5,387 bases of DNA from the NCBI GenBank assembly GCA_015234045.1, contig JADFWU010000097.1, forward strand, positions 1 through 5,387, given 5' to 3'. The translations under genes were made by a program, and so were the position numbers. The stretch comes from Magnetococcales bacterium. GTDB lineage: Bacteria > Pseudomonadota > Magnetococcia > Magnetococcales > JADFWU01. This document shows positions 1-5,387 of this stretch, in pieces; position 1 is the first letter of the stretch, and every line of letters starts with the position of its first letter. Under the pieces are notes generated by a model that saw only the letters and a list, made by a program, of their open reading frames with translations, was not told where the DNA came from and ran no database searches.

Positions 1-84
1 CCAATTTAGTCCATATTGAACAATCCAGTACTCATATTGAAGTCGATCAGATTGTTGATGCTGATGCCTATTCAGACACAATGA
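1..84 (+). repeat. Long inverted repeat, left copy (partner 3886-3969)
   Basis: Base n of this segment equals the complement of base 3970-n. Bases 1-77 are identical, base 78 differs (A here, G in the partner read on the - strand), bases 79-84 match again, and from 85 the two diverge. The repeat may extend past the left edge. The two copies enclose the entire nrdJa-nrdJb operon and the MITE-like element. Confidence 0.95.
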
Positions 85-464: not shown

Positions 465-477
465 ATGGCCGAGAGAG

Positions 478-482
478 AAGGA
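478..482 (+). promoter_or_regulatory. Ribosome binding site deciding the nrdJa start
   Basis: AAGGA lies six bases before ATG 489, an ideal spacing. The alternative in-frame ATG at 465 is preceded by an AT-rich stretch with no Shine-Dalgarno match. This favours a 710-residue protein over a 718-residue one. Confidence 0.75.
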
Positions 483-488
483 ACTGTC

Positions 489-2621
489 ATGTCGAGTAGT
501 GCAAAATCTGTGGAGCAAGCAATACCCGGAGCGCCAGATGAAATTGCGCTTCAACCCGCTTCCCGTGACATTTGGGACAAAAAATATCGGCTTACGTCGA
601 AAGACAACAAGCCCGTTGACCGCACCGTGGCGCAAACCATGGAACGTGTGGCCAAAGCCTTGGCTGACGCGGAACTGCCCGTAAAGCGCACGTTCTGGTA
701 CGACCGCTTTCTTTGGGCGCTTCAGAATGGTGCAATCCCGGCGGGTAGAATTATCTCCAATGCCGGCGCTCAAGCCCATAAGCCCGCGACCAGCACCATT
801 AACTGTACGGTTTCCGGCACAGTCGGTGACTCCATGGCTGAGATTCTCTCCTCGGTCCAGGAAGCAGGCATGACACTCAAAGCCGGTTGCGGAATCGGCT
901 ACGAATTTTCAACACTCCGTCCCAAAGGCGCATTTGTCGCCGGTGCTGGTGCCAGCACTTCCGGGCCGCTCTCTTTTATGGATATCTTCGATGCCATGTG
1001 CCGGACAATCAGTTCGGCTGGTGATCGGCGTGGCGCTCAAATGGCCACTTTTGACATTTCTCATCCTGACATCACCGAATTTATCCGCGCCAAGCGTGAT
1101 GACGGTCGCCTACGTCAGTTTAACCTCTCCTGCCTGATTACCAAACCGTTTCTTGAAGCGGTCAAGGCAGACGATGAATGGCCACTGATTTTTCCTGCTA
1201 ACAAGCATGAGCAGAATGATCCCAATGTGGAGCTGATCTATCGCCCCTGGCATCTGGATGATAATTATAAAGTGAACGATAAAGGCGAAGTAGCCTGTCG
1301 GGTTTACCAACGTATGCCCGCTCGCAAGCTGTGGAACCTGATCATGTCCTCCACCTACGATTTTGCCGAGCCTGGCTTTATCCTTATCGACAAAATCAAT
1401 GAGATGAACAATCTCTGGTTTGCTGAGGATATCCGCTCAACGAATCCATGTGGTGAACAACCTTTGCCGCCCTATGGTGCCTGTTTACTCGGTTCCATCA
1501 ACCTGACCCGTTTTGTCAAGAATCCGTTCACGCCCAATGCTGAATTCGATTGGGAACATTTCCGCGACGTGGTGCGCGTGTTCACCCGAATGCTGGACAA
1601 TGTGGTGAGCATTCACGGCCTTCCGCTGGACAAACAGGGCGAAGAACTGAACTATAAACGCCGTCACGGCATGGGCTTCTTGGGGCTTGGCTCCACCATT
1701 ACCATGATGGGGATGAAATATGGCAAGCCGGATTCCGTCTCCTTTACTGATCAGGTTGCCAAAGAGTTGGCCATCACCGGTTGGGAAGTAGGCGTAGAAC
1801 TGGCTGAAGAAAAAGGCGTGGCACCAATCCTGGAAGAAACGTTCATCGTCAACGAAGCCATGCTGACCAAGCGCCCTCAAATGCGTGAACACGGGATCAA
1901 GGCAGGCGATAAAATCTCCGGCCTTAAATTGATGACCCGCTACAGCAATTATCTGTCTCAATTTCCAGAAGCACTACGCCAACGGATTGAAGAAAAAGGG
2001 TGCCGTTTCACCCATCACACATCCATTGCACCCACTGGAACCATTGCGCTTTCACTGGGCAACAACGCCTCTAACGGCATTGAACCCAGTTTTGCCCATA
2101 AATACTCTCGCAACATCATCCGCGAAGGCCGCAAGACCAAAGAGAAAGTCGATGTACTCTCTTATGAACTGCTGGCCTATCAGACCCTGGTCAATCCCAG
2201 CGCTGATCCTTTTGCTACCGATGGCGAGGACGCACTACCCGATTACTTCCTGAGCGCCGATGATATCGAACCTCGGGAACATGTGGACATACAGGCAGCC
2301 GCCCAAAAGTGGGTTGACTCCTCCATCTCCAAAACCATCAACGTACCCACGGATTTCGAGTTTGAGTCGTTCAAAGAGATCTATCTCTATGCGTATAAAA
2401 AAGGGCTCAAAGGGTGTACGACTTTCCGTTATAATCCAGAAGCATTTCAAGGTGTTTTGGTGAAAGATTCCGATCTGAAAGCCACCACCTATCGCTTTAC
2501 TCTGGACAATGGCGAAACCGTTGATGTCGCAGGCGATGAAACCATCACCTATGATGGTGAAGAGCACTCCGCTGCCAACCTGTTCGATGCCCTGAAAGAG
2601 GGCTATTACGGTCGCTATTGA
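489..2621 (+). CDS. nrdJa: Adenosylcobalamin-dependent (class II) ribonucleotide reductase, catalytic subunit NrdJa
   Basis: This 710-residue cytosolic enzyme subunit reduces ribonucleotides to deoxyribonucleotides, using a radical generated from coenzyme B12 rather than oxygen and a NrdB subunit. The radical cysteine is in STNPCGEQPL (Asn319, Cys321, Glu323). The redox pair is Cys106 in STINCTVSG and Cys332 in YGACLLGSINL; the 11-residue spacing from 321 to 332 agrees with class II enzymes. Other family signatures are GCGIGYEFS (133-141), SAGDRRGAQM (176-185), IAPTGTIAL (513-521) and GLKGCTTFRYN (about 639-649). No ATP-cone is seen at the N-terminus, so dATP shut-off of overall activity is unlikely (inference). 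Unsplit NrdJ proteins continue into a TSCPD domain and cysteine tail; here the protein stops at YYGRY and those parts are encoded by the next gene. ATG 489 is chosen over ATG 465 because of its ribosome binding site. Confidence 0.96.
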   Translation: MSSSAKSVEQAIPGAPDEIALQPASRDIWDKKYRLTSKDNKPVDRTVAQTMERVAKALADAELPVKRTFWYDRFLWALQNGAIPAGRIISNAGAQAHKPATSTINCTVSGTVGDSMAEILSSVQEAGMTLKAGCGIGYEFSTLRPKGAFVAGAGASTSGPLSFMDIFDAMCRTISSAGDRRGAQMATFDISHPDITEFIRAKRDDGRLRQFNLSCLITKPFLEAVKADDEWPLIFPANKHEQNDPNVELIYRPWHLDDNYKVNDKGEVACRVYQRMPARKLWNLIMSSTYDFAEPGFILIDKINEMNNLWFAEDIRSTNPCGEQPLPPYGACLLGSINLTRFVKNPFTPNAEFDWEHFRDVVRVFTRMLDNVVSIHGLPLDKQGEELNYKRRHGMGFLGLGSTITMMGMKYGKPDSVSFTDQVAKELAITGWEVGVELAEEKGVAPILEETFIVNEAMLTKRPQMREHGIKAGDKISGLKLMTRYSNYLSQFPEALRQRIEEKGCRFTHHTSIAPTGTIALSLGNNASNGIEPSFAHKYSRNIIREGRKTKEKVDVLSYELLAYQTLVNPSADPFATDGEDALPDYFLSADDIEPREHVDIQAAAQKWVDSSISKTINVPTDFEFESFKEIYLYAYKKGLKGCTTFRYNPEAFQGVLVKDSDLKATTYRFTLDNGETVDVAGDETITYDGEEHSAANLFDALKEGYYGRY

Positions 2622-2667
2622 CAGTGAAATTGATGGACGCACGAGCAAAAAAGTCGTCACAAATTCA

Positions 2668-2674
2668 AGAGGAA
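2668..2674 (+). promoter_or_regulatory. Candidate ribosome binding site of nrdJb
   Basis: AGAGGAA precedes ATG 2687 with a rather long gap of 12 bases. The alternative starts (TTG 2618 overlapping the nrdJa stop as TTGA, GTG 2624, ATG 2633) have no good Shine-Dalgarno sequence, but could be used by ribosomes finishing nrdJa. Confidence 0.4.
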
Positions 2675-2686
2675 CTCGAAGAAAAG

Positions 2687-3325
2687 ATGGCTATTAAAAT
2701 CGACTCCAAAATAGTGGGTTACGAAGTCGTAACGGATAAGCCCGAAAAAAAGGAAACCACCCCGTCAGGAGCCGACGTTATTCACATGCGTCCGCCGCTG
2801 GCCCGGCCTGAAATGTTGGAAGGTGTCACCTATAAGGTTAAAACCCCGCTCTCCGAGCATGCCTTGTATATTACGCTCAACGATATTCTGGTCAATGCAG
2901 GCACCGATCAGGAACGGCGCCAACCCTTCGAGATTTTTATCAACTCGAAGAACATGGAGAACTTCGCCTGGATCGTTGCACTGACCCGGGTTATCTCAGC
3001 GGTATTTCGTAGCGGTGGCGATGCCAGTTTTCTGGTGGAAGAACTACGCGGCGTGTTTGATCCTCGGGGCGGCTACTTCAAACCCGGCGGAAAATATATG
3101 CCCAGCTTGGTGGCTGAAATCGGTGAATGCATCGAAAACCATCTCAAACGCATCGGCCTGATCAAAACCGAAGCACCACCACCCGAATTGGTGGAAAAAC
3201 GCGAACAAGCCGCCGCCGCAGGACTCACCGGCACCCGAAATTGCCCGAAATGCAGCCAGCTTTCCATGGTTAAACTGGACGGCTGTGACACCTGTTTGGA
3301 GTGCGGTTACTCCAAGTGTGGATAA
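2687..3325 (+). CDS. nrdJb: Class II ribonucleotide reductase, C-terminal subunit NrdJb (TSCPD domain and cysteine-rich tail)
   Basis: This is the detached C-terminal part of NrdJ, 212 residues from ATG 2687. It starts MAIKIDSKIVGYEVV, the usual beginning of this region, then has a charged linker and a TSCPD-type domain at about 48-153 (YKVKTPLSEHALYITLNDI, FEIFINSKNMENFAWIVAL, VFDPRGGY). After an Ala/Glu-rich linker it ends in a six-cysteine tail: Cys186, 189, 200, 203, 206 and 211 (CPKC, CDTCLEC, SKCG). In the P. aeruginosa split enzyme both polypeptides are needed for activity; the tail is thought to bind zinc and to re-reduce the active-site cysteine pair of NrdJa. The gene lies 65 bases after nrdJa, or overlaps it if an upstream start is used: ATG 2633 would add 18 residues (DARAKKSSQIQEELEEK follows that Met). 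I see no promoter between the genes, so co-transcription is likely. The start is less certain than the identity. Confidence 0.94.
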   Translation: MAIKIDSKIVGYEVVTDKPEKKETTPSGADVIHMRPPLARPEMLEGVTYKVKTPLSEHALYITLNDILVNAGTDQERRQPFEIFINSKNMENFAWIVALTRVISAVFRSGGDASFLVEELRGVFDPRGGYFKPGGKYMPSLVAEIGECIENHLKRIGLIKTEAPPPELVEKREQAAAAGLTGTRNCPKCSQLSMVKLDGCDTCLECGYSKCG

Positions 3326-3426: not shown

Positions 3427-3570
3427 TAGGCCCTGTTGACATTCACCTTCTTTCGACCCCTGGCGGCGTTAAATCCGCCTCAAAATGCTCACGTACTACA
3501 AGTACGCTCCGCTTTTTCGTTGGATTTGCCTTGCCAGGAACCGAAATCTGGTGAATGTCAACACGCCCTA
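3427..3570. mobile_element. MITE-like palindromic element with 21-bp terminal inverted repeats
   Basis: The ends at 3427-3447 and 3550-3570 are inverted repeats matching at 19 of 21 positions, sharing the core TGTTGACATTCACC; they differ at the fifth and seventh bases. TA at both outer edges could be a two-base target duplication, as in IS630/mariner-type insertion. Symmetry continues inward: CCTGGC and AAATCC recur inverted near 3528-3534 and 3522-3527, and the centre is CGTACT-ACA-AGTACG (3492-3506). Single strands should therefore fold into one long interrupted hairpin. It is too short to encode a transposase, so it would have been moved by an enzyme encoded elsewhere. The right end is only 13 bases from the stop codon of the convergent envelope gene, so it may also form the 3' end of that transcript. 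I cannot name the family. Confidence 0.7.
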
Positions 3571-3583
3571 GAGAAGTAAAACC

Positions 3584-5134
3584 TCAGTCAAGATCCAGTT
3601 CAAGCCCGATAGAGAATAAATTGATCGGCTCTGGTGTGAGCCATAAATGCTCCCATTCGATTCGGCCTCGGAGAGTCTTGGTAATGGCTCCTGTTGCCCC
3701 GACACCGATTAACGGATCTACGCCGCCATGACATTTTCTCCAGGTTTGTGTGCTATCATCACGGCCCTTAACACACTGCTTCCAGGCCCAAAGACCGGCT
3801 TTTGTATGGAATGAGAGACGTGATGTTGGCCATATGCCGACCCCCTGTAGAGAGAGTCCGTTAATCTGACCGGGCAGGTTTTTACTCATTGCGTCTGAAT
3901 AGGCATCAGCATCAACAATCTGATCGACTTCAATATGAGTACTGGATTGTTCAATATGGACTAAATTGGATTCCAGAGCAAAATGATCGCTAACGCGGTA
4001 ACCACCATAAAGCTTACCACTCAAGCTGAAACGATCCAAAGAAGCGGTTCCGGTGATACCCTGATCTAATAGACTGGATTGGACATCAGACGCACCAACG
4101 GTATGTTGCATCAGACCTAAAGAAGCACCGGCATAGAAGCCGCTGTTGTCTGCATTCAAACCAGAGGTCGCATTATCTTGCTGCGGTCTATCGGTAGGTG
4201 CCTCACTCTGAATATACGCGTTCTGACTACTGACAGAATGCTCCTGAACTGCTGAGGTTCGATCAGCTTTATTTTCCTGAACTTCCAATGTGCGATCAGC
4301 ATCATTTTCCTGAACTGCTGAGATTCTATCAGCATGCGCTTCTTCCGAATTATCTTCTGAAATATATGTATGACCCGTCAAAATGGCTATCTGCTCTTTT
4401 GGAAGTTGAAATCTTTCCGGCAAATGATTGACTCTGTTGGAAAATAGAGAAATTCGCTCGGCCTTGGCAGAAAAAACATGGGGTGTGCCAAAACCTGTTC
4501 GGCGCATGAGGCGTGCCTGTTCCAGCGTTGGATTAAGGTGTGGATTTCCTCCAGTTAGAACCAGATTCCAGAGCCGCCCATCCTTACCTCGGACTGCCAG
4601 AATAAAAGTATCCGATTTTTTCAGCTGGATCTTTTTTGCCAAGGCTATTGCTTTTCGCTCATCAATAAAGGCACCGAATTGGACAAAATGGATCTTTTTT
4701 TGCTCTGGAATATCAGCAATCAGATCGTTGTTCATCAATGGTGCGGGCAGTTGAGCCAATCGACCAGAACGATTTATACGTTGAAAATATTGACGAAATT
4801 TCTCTGAAGACGTTGTGTAAACCAATGGGACCGCATTAAGATTTTGCTTTATTTTCGATGCAAGAGTAAACAATGGTTTGGTATGCGTACTCCATGCACC
4901 GACAACCACATATTGCGTTTGTTTCCGACGGTTCATGACCCCGACAACAAAAGGCTCCAGTCCAGCATCTCGCCAATAATCCAGCCAATGATCAGCCCTG
5001 GATAGATGATTAAAAGTGCCTAGGTTGAGCAGATGCACCGGGTTGGGTACTTGATCAGCGTTGGAGGAGGACGTGGGCAAGATCACTCCCAAGAGCAAAA
5101 TTGATAGAACGCAGTATTTTGTAAAGTCAGACAT
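3584..5134 (-). CDS. Exported envelope protein: two SPOR-like domains, 11-residue repeats and a C-terminal OmpA-like outer-membrane beta-barrel
   Basis: The 516-residue product has a signal peptide (hydrophobic core about 8-20, likely signal peptidase I cut after SSSNA at 26). Residues about 33-100 and 148-221 each resemble SPOR domains, which bind septal peptidoglycan lacking stem peptides: HLLNLGTF...AGLEPFVV...YVVVGAWS and IHFVQFGAF...RLWNLVLTGG. A polar linker holds three 11-residue repeats (268-300). Residues about 330-516 look like an eight-stranded OmpA-type barrel: GFYAGASLGL, LSGKLYGGYRV, alternating strands, and the end INLFSIGLELDLD. Cys454 and Cys468 could form a disulfide in a loop. 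The usual terminal aromatic residue is missing. OmpA has the opposite order, barrel first. The inferred role is tying the outer membrane to the cell wall, perhaps at division sites; this is unproven. The start at 5134 has a good ribosome binding site. Sampled lines of its middle are about 37-38% GC, below nrdJa, and the two genes converge. Confidence 0.85.
   Translation of the reverse strand: MSDFTKYCVLSILLLGVILPTSSSNADQVPNPVHLLNLGTFNHLSRADHWLDYWRDAGLEPFVVGVMNRRKQTQYVVVGAWSTHTKPLFTLASKIKQNLNAVPLVYTTSSEKFRQYFQRINRSGRLAQLPAPLMNNDLIADIPEQKKIHFVQFGAFIDERKAIALAKKIQLKKSDTFILAVRGKDGRLWNLVLTGGNPHLNPTLEQARLMRRTGFGTPHVFSAKAERISLFSNRVNHLPERFQLPKEQIAILTGHTYISEDNSEEAHADRISAVQENDADRTLEVQENKADRTSAVQEHSVSSQNAYIQSEAPTDRPQQDNATSGLNADNSGFYAGASLGLMQHTVGASDVQSSLLDQGITGTASLDRFSLSGKLYGGYRVSDHFALESNLVHIEQSSTHIEVDQIVDADAYSDAMSKNLPGQINGLSLQGVGIWPTSRLSFHTKAGLWAWKQCVKGRDDSTQTWRKCHGGVDPLIGVGATGAITKTLRGRIEWEHLWLTPEPINLFSIGLELDLD
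3886..3969 (-). repeat. Long inverted repeat, right copy (partner 1-84)
   Basis: This is the intact-gene counterpart of the left-edge copy, encoding about residues 389-417 inside the beta-barrel. Matching is 83 of 84 bases in inverted orientation. The copies are about 3.9 kb apart, so homologous recombination between them would invert everything between 85 and 3885. Confidence 0.95.
4235..4333 (-). repeat. Three in-frame 33-bp repeats encoding 11-residue units
   Basis: The units are ADRISAVQEND, ADRTLEVQENK and ADRTSAVQEHS (residues 268-300). The first and third DNA copies agree at about 27 of 33 bases; the middle copy is more diverged at its centre. The spacing is exactly 33 bases, so unit number could change without breaking the frame. 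Eleven-residue periodicity fits a hendecad coiled coil or an extended spacer between the SPOR region and the barrel. Confidence 0.9.
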
Positions 5135-5143
5135 TCTATAATT

Positions 5144-5149
5144 TCCTTT
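5144..5149 (-). promoter_or_regulatory. Ribosome binding site of the envelope gene
   Basis: On the - strand AAAGGA lies nine bases before the ATG at 5134, a normal spacing, and confirms that start. I could not find a convincing promoter in the roughly 50 bases between this site and the hairpin cluster; the promoter may be weak, of another sigma class, or beyond the repeats. Confidence 0.7.
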
Positions 5150-5185
5150 ATGAGTTACGCAGTTGGTGTCCTGTCTGTGTTTTGC

Positions 5186-5198
5186 GCCGCTTCGCGGC
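5186..5198. repeat. Hairpin GCCGC-TTC-GCGGC at the edge of the repeat array
   Basis: A perfect 5-bp stem with a three-base loop, followed by TAT and then the first 29-bp unit. It has the same design as the hairpins inside the units but a different stem sequence, and looks like a diverged founder or end unit. It lies about 52 bases upstream of the envelope gene start. Confidence 0.7.
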
Positions 5199-5206
5199 TA
5201 TGTTTC

Positions 5207-5343
5207 GGCATGCCAGCCCTTTGGGCTATGCCTTCGGCATGCCAGCCCTTTGGGCTATGCCTTCGGCATGCCAGCCCTTTGGGCTATACCTTCGGCATAC
5301 CAGCCCTTTGGGCTATGCCTTCGGCATGCCAGCCCTTTGGGCT
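5207..5343. repeat. Tandem array of 29-bp double-hairpin units (about 4.7 copies)
   Basis: Units start at 5207, 5236, 5265, 5294 and 5323 with exact 29-base spacing; the last is cut after 21 bases. Each carries AGCCC-TTT-GGGCT, and each junction forms ATGCC-TTC-GGCAT, so the array is a string of about nine short stems with three-base loops. The fourth unit differs by paired G-to-A changes (ATACC before and CATACC after the TTC loop), otherwise the copies are identical. There are no unique spacers. An open frame runs through it but only encodes the repeat. It lies just upstream of the envelope gene, so its transcript or supercoiling effects could influence that gene (inference). Confidence 0.95.
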
Positions 5344-5348
5344 GGGAC

Positions 5349-5387
5349 GGCTGCTACGCAGCCTATTAATTGTGTGGCCCTTTGGGC
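5349..5387. repeat. Further hairpins right of the array, running to the window edge
   Basis: GGCTGC-TAC-GCAGCC at 5349-5363 is a perfect 6-bp stem with a three-base loop. After an AT-rich gap, GCCC-TTT-GGGC at 5376-5387 repeats the core of the 29-bp unit and touches the right edge. The cluster therefore probably continues beyond this window. Confidence 0.65.

Follow-up and report, generated by a model that had tools for sequence, protein, structure and literature searches.

Features of the locus

The window, by which we mean the whole stretch of DNA analysed (5,387 nucleotides), corresponds to contig C114 of a Magnetococcales genome of 3.65 Mb, assembled in 117 contigs and 93% complete. Its minus strand carries an open reading frame for a protein in which a putative signal peptide is followed by two SPOR-type modules, a linker, and a C-terminal barrel. 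The frame had been proposed in a first-pass annotation and was borne out exactly; the domain calls of that annotation, and the order in which it placed them, also proved correct. The features are as follows.

3584 to 5134, minus strand: SPOR-SPOR-linker-barrel gene, 516 residues, ATG start
5144 to 5149, minus strand: AAAGGA ribosome-binding site, 9 nt before the ATG, read from the sequence
5057 to 5134, minus strand: signal peptide, residues 1 to 26, with a hydrophobic core read by eye
4769 to 5038, minus strand: SPOR1, residues about 33 to 122, called from the lineage profile, the alignment to SPOR2, and the predicted fold
4421 to 4702, minus strand: SPOR2, residues about 145 to 238, called from Pfam, the lineage profile, and the RlpA glycan-contact motif
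4160 to 4402, minus strand: polar linker, residues about 245 to 325, read from the translation and alignment
4242 to 4340, minus strand: three 33-nt (11-residue) tandem repeats inside the linker, found by repeat search
3587 to 4156, minus strand: OmpA-type eight-stranded barrel domain, residues 327 to 516, called from Pfam, the family profile, and independent profiles
1 to 84, plus strand, at the left end of the contig: 84-nt inverted copy of the barrel codons at 3886 to 3969, with one mismatch

The signal peptide is probably cleaved after SNA. A Pfam scan of the protein, with E values up to 10, gave SPOR and OmpA_membrane only; neither OmpA-C (PF00691) nor an SLH domain was found. After the inverted copy at the contig end, the frame stays open for a further 27 codons or so, which encode unrelated residues, and the copy may be either a gene remnant or an assembly-end effect.

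The C-terminal domain is an OmpA-type barrel

Since the Pfam scores of the window protein taken alone fall just below the cut-off, profiles built from its relatives were used. In Pfam, OmpA_membrane (PF01389) aligned to residues 332 to 498 with an E value of 3e-4 and 20.9 bits against a cut-off of 21. As seen with profiles that exclude the window protein, residues 327 to 512 scored 97.8 bits against 11 relatives from outside Magnetococcales (best of 1000 shuffles, 5.3 bits), and the barrel scored 113 bits against the other five SPOR-barrel proteins of Magnetococcales (best of 1000 shuffles, 7.0). In addition, a profile of the barrel family, which includes the window protein, matched solved OmpA barrels with E values of 1e-9 to 1e-11. 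Overall, these results securely identify the domain as OmpA-type by homology over the whole eight-stranded domain. The first-pass annotation had placed a barrel at residues 330 to 516; the homology carries this over 327 to 512, and closure of the barrel is read from homology rather than from a model. The full-length model, made from an alignment of three sequences (the protein itself and two relatives), had a mean pLDDT of 32.

We also observed two peculiarities of this domain. The protein ends in GLELDLD and lacks the aromatic residue that ends the last strand in its relatives. Two cysteines, at positions 452 and 468, lie in the barrel region, in a stretch that probably forms a surface loop.

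SPOR2 keeps the glycan-contact motif and SPOR1 is a weaker match

SPOR2 can be assigned securely as a SPOR domain by its sequence. The Pfam SPOR model (PF05036) matched residues 147 to 193 with an E value of 7e-4 and 20.4 bits against a cut-off of 21, and the module scored 33 to 38 bits against an iterated profile of 46 Magnetococcales SPOR modules that was built without the window protein (shuffle maximum, 9.7). The stretch Q152-F-G-A155-F156 equals the Q270-V271-x-A273-F274 motif of RlpA, in which Q270, within Q270-x-x-A273-F274, is the glycan-contacting glutamine (PMC6895207). Q152 is invariant across the six aligned SPOR-barrels. In the motif alignment, leucines occupy the positions of RlpA R309 and R311, with charged residues nearby.

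SPOR1 gave no match in Pfam. Its scores against the 46-module profile varied with the stretch taken, from 15.4 to 19.8 bits, all scored shuffles being lower (maximum, 9.7), and it aligns to SPOR2 across the module without internal gaps. When SPOR1 was folded with SPOR2 and two relatives, the model reached a pLDDT of 85 with the order beta-alpha-beta-beta-alpha-beta, a result that is not fully independent because the alignment held SPOR relatives. Comparison of the model with solved structures (Foldseek, VIA-align) gave as top match 6ozd, a larger exported protein (Z of 9.9), and among solved SPOR domains CwlC (8.9), RlpA with glycan (8.8), DedD (6.5), and DamX (5.9); the next match after DamX was an unrelated protein with a Z of 5.0. 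These data support, rather than prove, a SPOR fold for SPOR1. Thus, of the two SPOR folds first proposed, SPOR2 is established by sequence, and SPOR1 stands less firmly, unmatched in Pfam but with a SPOR-like model. Members of the SPOR fold family tend to have the conserved glutamine, although it is not an absolute requirement. In SPOR1 its place as glycan contact is taken by Asn38, and therefore SPOR1 may bind glycan only weakly, if at all.

Among the loci fetched, two or three SPOR modules in one Magnetococcales protein were common (L012, L013, L037, L044, and others), and in several such proteins the last strand is followed by a shared C-terminal extension.

Relatives with the same domain order were found in a few genomes of the order

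A homologue search recovered the same order of domains, as the first-pass annotation had suggested looking for, in two paralogues of the same genome and in three other Magnetococcales genomes. The paralogues (L002 and L003) consist of a signal peptide, one SPOR domain, a Pro/Gln-rich linker, and a barrel, all over the Pfam cut-offs. The proteins from the other genomes (L008, L009, and L010, the last two also fetched as L045 and L046) follow the same plan; Pfam places SPOR over the cut-off in L008 and L045, and in L046, where Pfam reported no SPOR, the module scored 78 bits with the lineage profile. Linkers diverge among these relatives. The two-SPOR architecture holds for the window protein, but each of the five relatives carries a single SPOR.

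Full-length profile matches were present in 4 of 48 genomes of the order (the genome of the window and 3 of the 47 others). Beyond the order, no SPOR-barrel turned up in a phylum sample of 398 genomes, which itself contains genomes of the order, and none in 369 genomes of one other class (that of G319); both sets are samples in which rare SPOR-barrels could be missed. A conserved-stretch search with four sequences led to two Magnetococcales MAG records, with CAIWLA010000491 among the relatives' records. No conserved neighbourhood that would link the protein to division genes was seen, the neighbours in the window being ribonucleotide reductase frames.

A barrel tree was built with 30 rows, of which three are the window gene itself, since it recurs in two loci. 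The tree joins the window protein to L008, L009, and L010 (89/89) and places the paralogues L002 and L003 in a separate cluster. A single origin of all SPOR-barrels appeared in 34% of bootstrap trees, so that one fusion and two cannot be told apart from these sequences. The titles and abstracts listed, mostly of non-subscription literature, on SPOR together with barrel, outer-membrane, OmpA, or Magnetococc did not describe a SPOR-barrel fusion. Both modules are known, and we could not find their combination described.

A wall-binding domain ahead of a barrel is not topologically odd

The first-pass annotation had presented the order as a reverse OmpA. As a claim of oddity this was overstated, and the idea of an unprecedented reverse order was rejected, since OmpM and L094 also have the wall-binding domain first and the barrel last. 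An eight-stranded OmpA barrel has both of its ends in the periplasm, and a wall-binding domain that precedes the barrel is therefore not unusual in topology. L094, a relative from another class of Pseudomonadota, has OmpA-C, then Big_9, then the OmpA barrel (Pfam); it resembles the window protein in order and in its related barrel, and differs in having OmpA-C instead of SPOR. In L088, FecR comes before the barrel (Pfam). Members of this barrel family, as judged from their sequences, thus follow many different N-terminal parts.

Compared with OmpA (PF01389 plus PF00691), the window protein has the same barrel family, a periplasmic wall-binding part, and a would-be role as an outer-membrane tether. 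In contrast, its wall-binding part is SPOR, not OmpA-C, and stands before the barrel. The ligands would differ accordingly: denuded glycan is expected for SPOR, whereas OmpA-C binds the diaminopimelate of the stem peptide. The SPOR fold is shared with RlpA, DamX, DedD, FtsN, and CwlC, and the key glutamine of these is found in SPOR2. Unlike the window protein, to our knowledge none of them is anchored by a barrel: FtsN, DamX, and DedD have an inner-membrane helix, RlpA has a lipid anchor, and CwlC is a secreted enzyme. Gracilicutes are the clade that contains Pseudomonadota. OmpM of Terrabacteria, with SLH first and the barrel last, is reported absent from Gracilicutes (PMC10628300). OmpM, SlpA, and Mep45, the SLH-barrel proteins of Terrabacteria, also share with the window protein a leading wall-binding domain, a linker, and a final barrel (PMC10628300), but theirs combine an SLH domain with a larger, porin-type barrel.

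Among the loci fetched, four frames run without interruption from extracellular-type domains through to an OmpA barrel (L084, 1501 to 3576; L085, 1 to 2082; L086, 1501 to 3564; L091, 1 to 2094). The extracellular-type domains are DUF11 or Ig-like in the frames scanned; after them come a hydrophobic, Gly-rich stretch with arginines at its end, another hydrophobic stretch, and the barrel. By eye, the Gly-rich stretch resembles a GlyGly-CTERM sorting signal; the GlyGly-CTERM model was not listed by an NCBIfam scan of L084, L085, and L091. At L047, a frame at 2 to 1444 has a GlyGly-CTERM-like tail (14.4 bits against a cut-off of 15.5), and its last four bases are also the first four of a canonical ompA (1441 to 2676).

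Canonical OmpA appears to be absent from the genome

To look for canonical OmpA, with its barrel ahead of OmpA-C, we combined L047, L048, and L049, which have this arrangement, into a profile. Among the matches listed in the 48 genomes of the order, none spans both halves; each covers one of the two, OmpA-C or barrel. We also inspected by eye six OmpA-C proteins encoded in other Magnetococcales genomes: thrombospondin-type repeats are present in four of them, and the remaining two have a different N-terminal part. The genome of the window has six OmpA-C matches, none with a barrel on reading: L054 has TSP_3 repeats and OmpA-C, and L053 has OmpA-C only (Pfam, both without a barrel), and by eye L055 resembles the lipoprotein Pal, L056 resembles MotB, and L057 and L058 are MotB-like. 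The OMP_b-brl matches of this genome coincide with none of these six proteins. Within the reach of the profiles and of a genome 93% complete, canonical OmpA therefore appears to be absent. We also found one Amidase_3 protein, with an N-terminal part that is AMIN-like by eye; such an enzyme could in principle make denuded glycan.

A putative tether to septal glycan

Taken together, we consider it fairly probable that the window protein is a non-covalent tether between the outer membrane and denuded, mainly septal, glycan. From what is known of the families, the protein would be exported by Sec and its C-terminal barrel would insert into the outer membrane, with the polar linker spanning the periplasmic gap. 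The SPOR modules, above all SPOR2, would hold glycan strands without stem peptides. Amidases produce such strands chiefly where the cell divides, and the protein would therefore gather at septa and young poles and would hold outer membrane and wall together during constriction. That the anchoring is to septal glycan free of stem peptides, as first proposed, is what the SPOR literature would most readily suggest. A tether of this kind is suggested by the retained Q152, the modelled SPOR1 fold, the barrel homology, the recurring domain order, the Amidase_3 gene, and the canonical OmpA that was not found. Arguing against it are Asn38 in SPOR1, the leucines at the positions of RlpA R309 and R311, the missing terminal aromatic residue, the lack of a division-gene neighbourhood, and the sparse distribution (4 of 48).

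Some of these observations could also be accommodated if SPOR served here as a general periplasmic module, making protein contacts or weak contacts with the wall over the whole cell, and the protein simply substituted for OmpA, with no preference for septa. This is somewhat unlikely in our judgement. It would suit a genome that holds three SPOR-barrels and apparently no canonical OmpA, a SPOR1 without the key glutamine, and a genome in which SPOR domains are plentiful (19 matches); however, the invariance of the SPOR2 glutamine in six SPOR-barrels fits retained glycan recognition.

We regard as very unlikely that the main work is done by the surface loops of the barrel, in adhesion or recognition outside the cell, with SPOR merely placing the barrel at septa or poles. 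The cysteines at 452 and 468, whose loop position is taken from the alignment, and the many N-terminal modules that precede related barrels would be consistent with it, but the loops are short and a ligand-binding domain is absent. Decay or loss of function of the gene in this strain is extremely unlikely. Barrel and SPOR do score below the paralogues in Pfam, the protein lacks the terminal aromatic, and the contig end carries a partial inverted copy; however, all 516 codons are open, preceded by a good ribosome-binding site, and the alignment of the barrel covers its whole length.

Should the protein be a tether to denuded glycan, it would connect the outer membrane directly and physically to septal glycan through a barrel-anchored SPOR domain, a task that is otherwise attributed to Tol-Pal and lipoproteins. 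It would also be a Pseudomonadota counterpart to the domain order of OmpM, and would make it simple to test whether an outer-membrane protein can be positioned by denuded glycan alone. A takeover of the work of Tol-Pal is not indicated, since the genome encodes a lipoprotein that, by eye, is Pal-like. A broader and, to us, unlikely proposal is that the SPOR-barrels of Magnetococcales stand in for canonical OmpA, reading denuded glycan and concentrating outer-membrane attachment at the division site alongside Tol-Pal; the apparent lack of canonical OmpA makes this idea testable, though it is not thereby shown.

Other elements of the window

No tRNA or Rfam RNA was found in the window. Positions 465 to 3325 encode a class II ribonucleotide reductase split over two open reading frames that overlap, one with the NrdJ_Z catalytic part and the other with the TSCPD, C-terminal part. 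Between this and the SPOR-barrel gene, at 3427 to 3570, lies a 145-bp element with imperfect inverted-repeat ends. The genome holds about 20 near full-length copies of it, which are 95 to 98% alike, and several partial ones, some at contig ends; the element is MITE-like and has probably been active recently. A dispersed repeat occupies 5148 to 5387. Its other copies, at about ten places, match its two ends, and in the window a 29-bp tandem array of five units lies between these ends.
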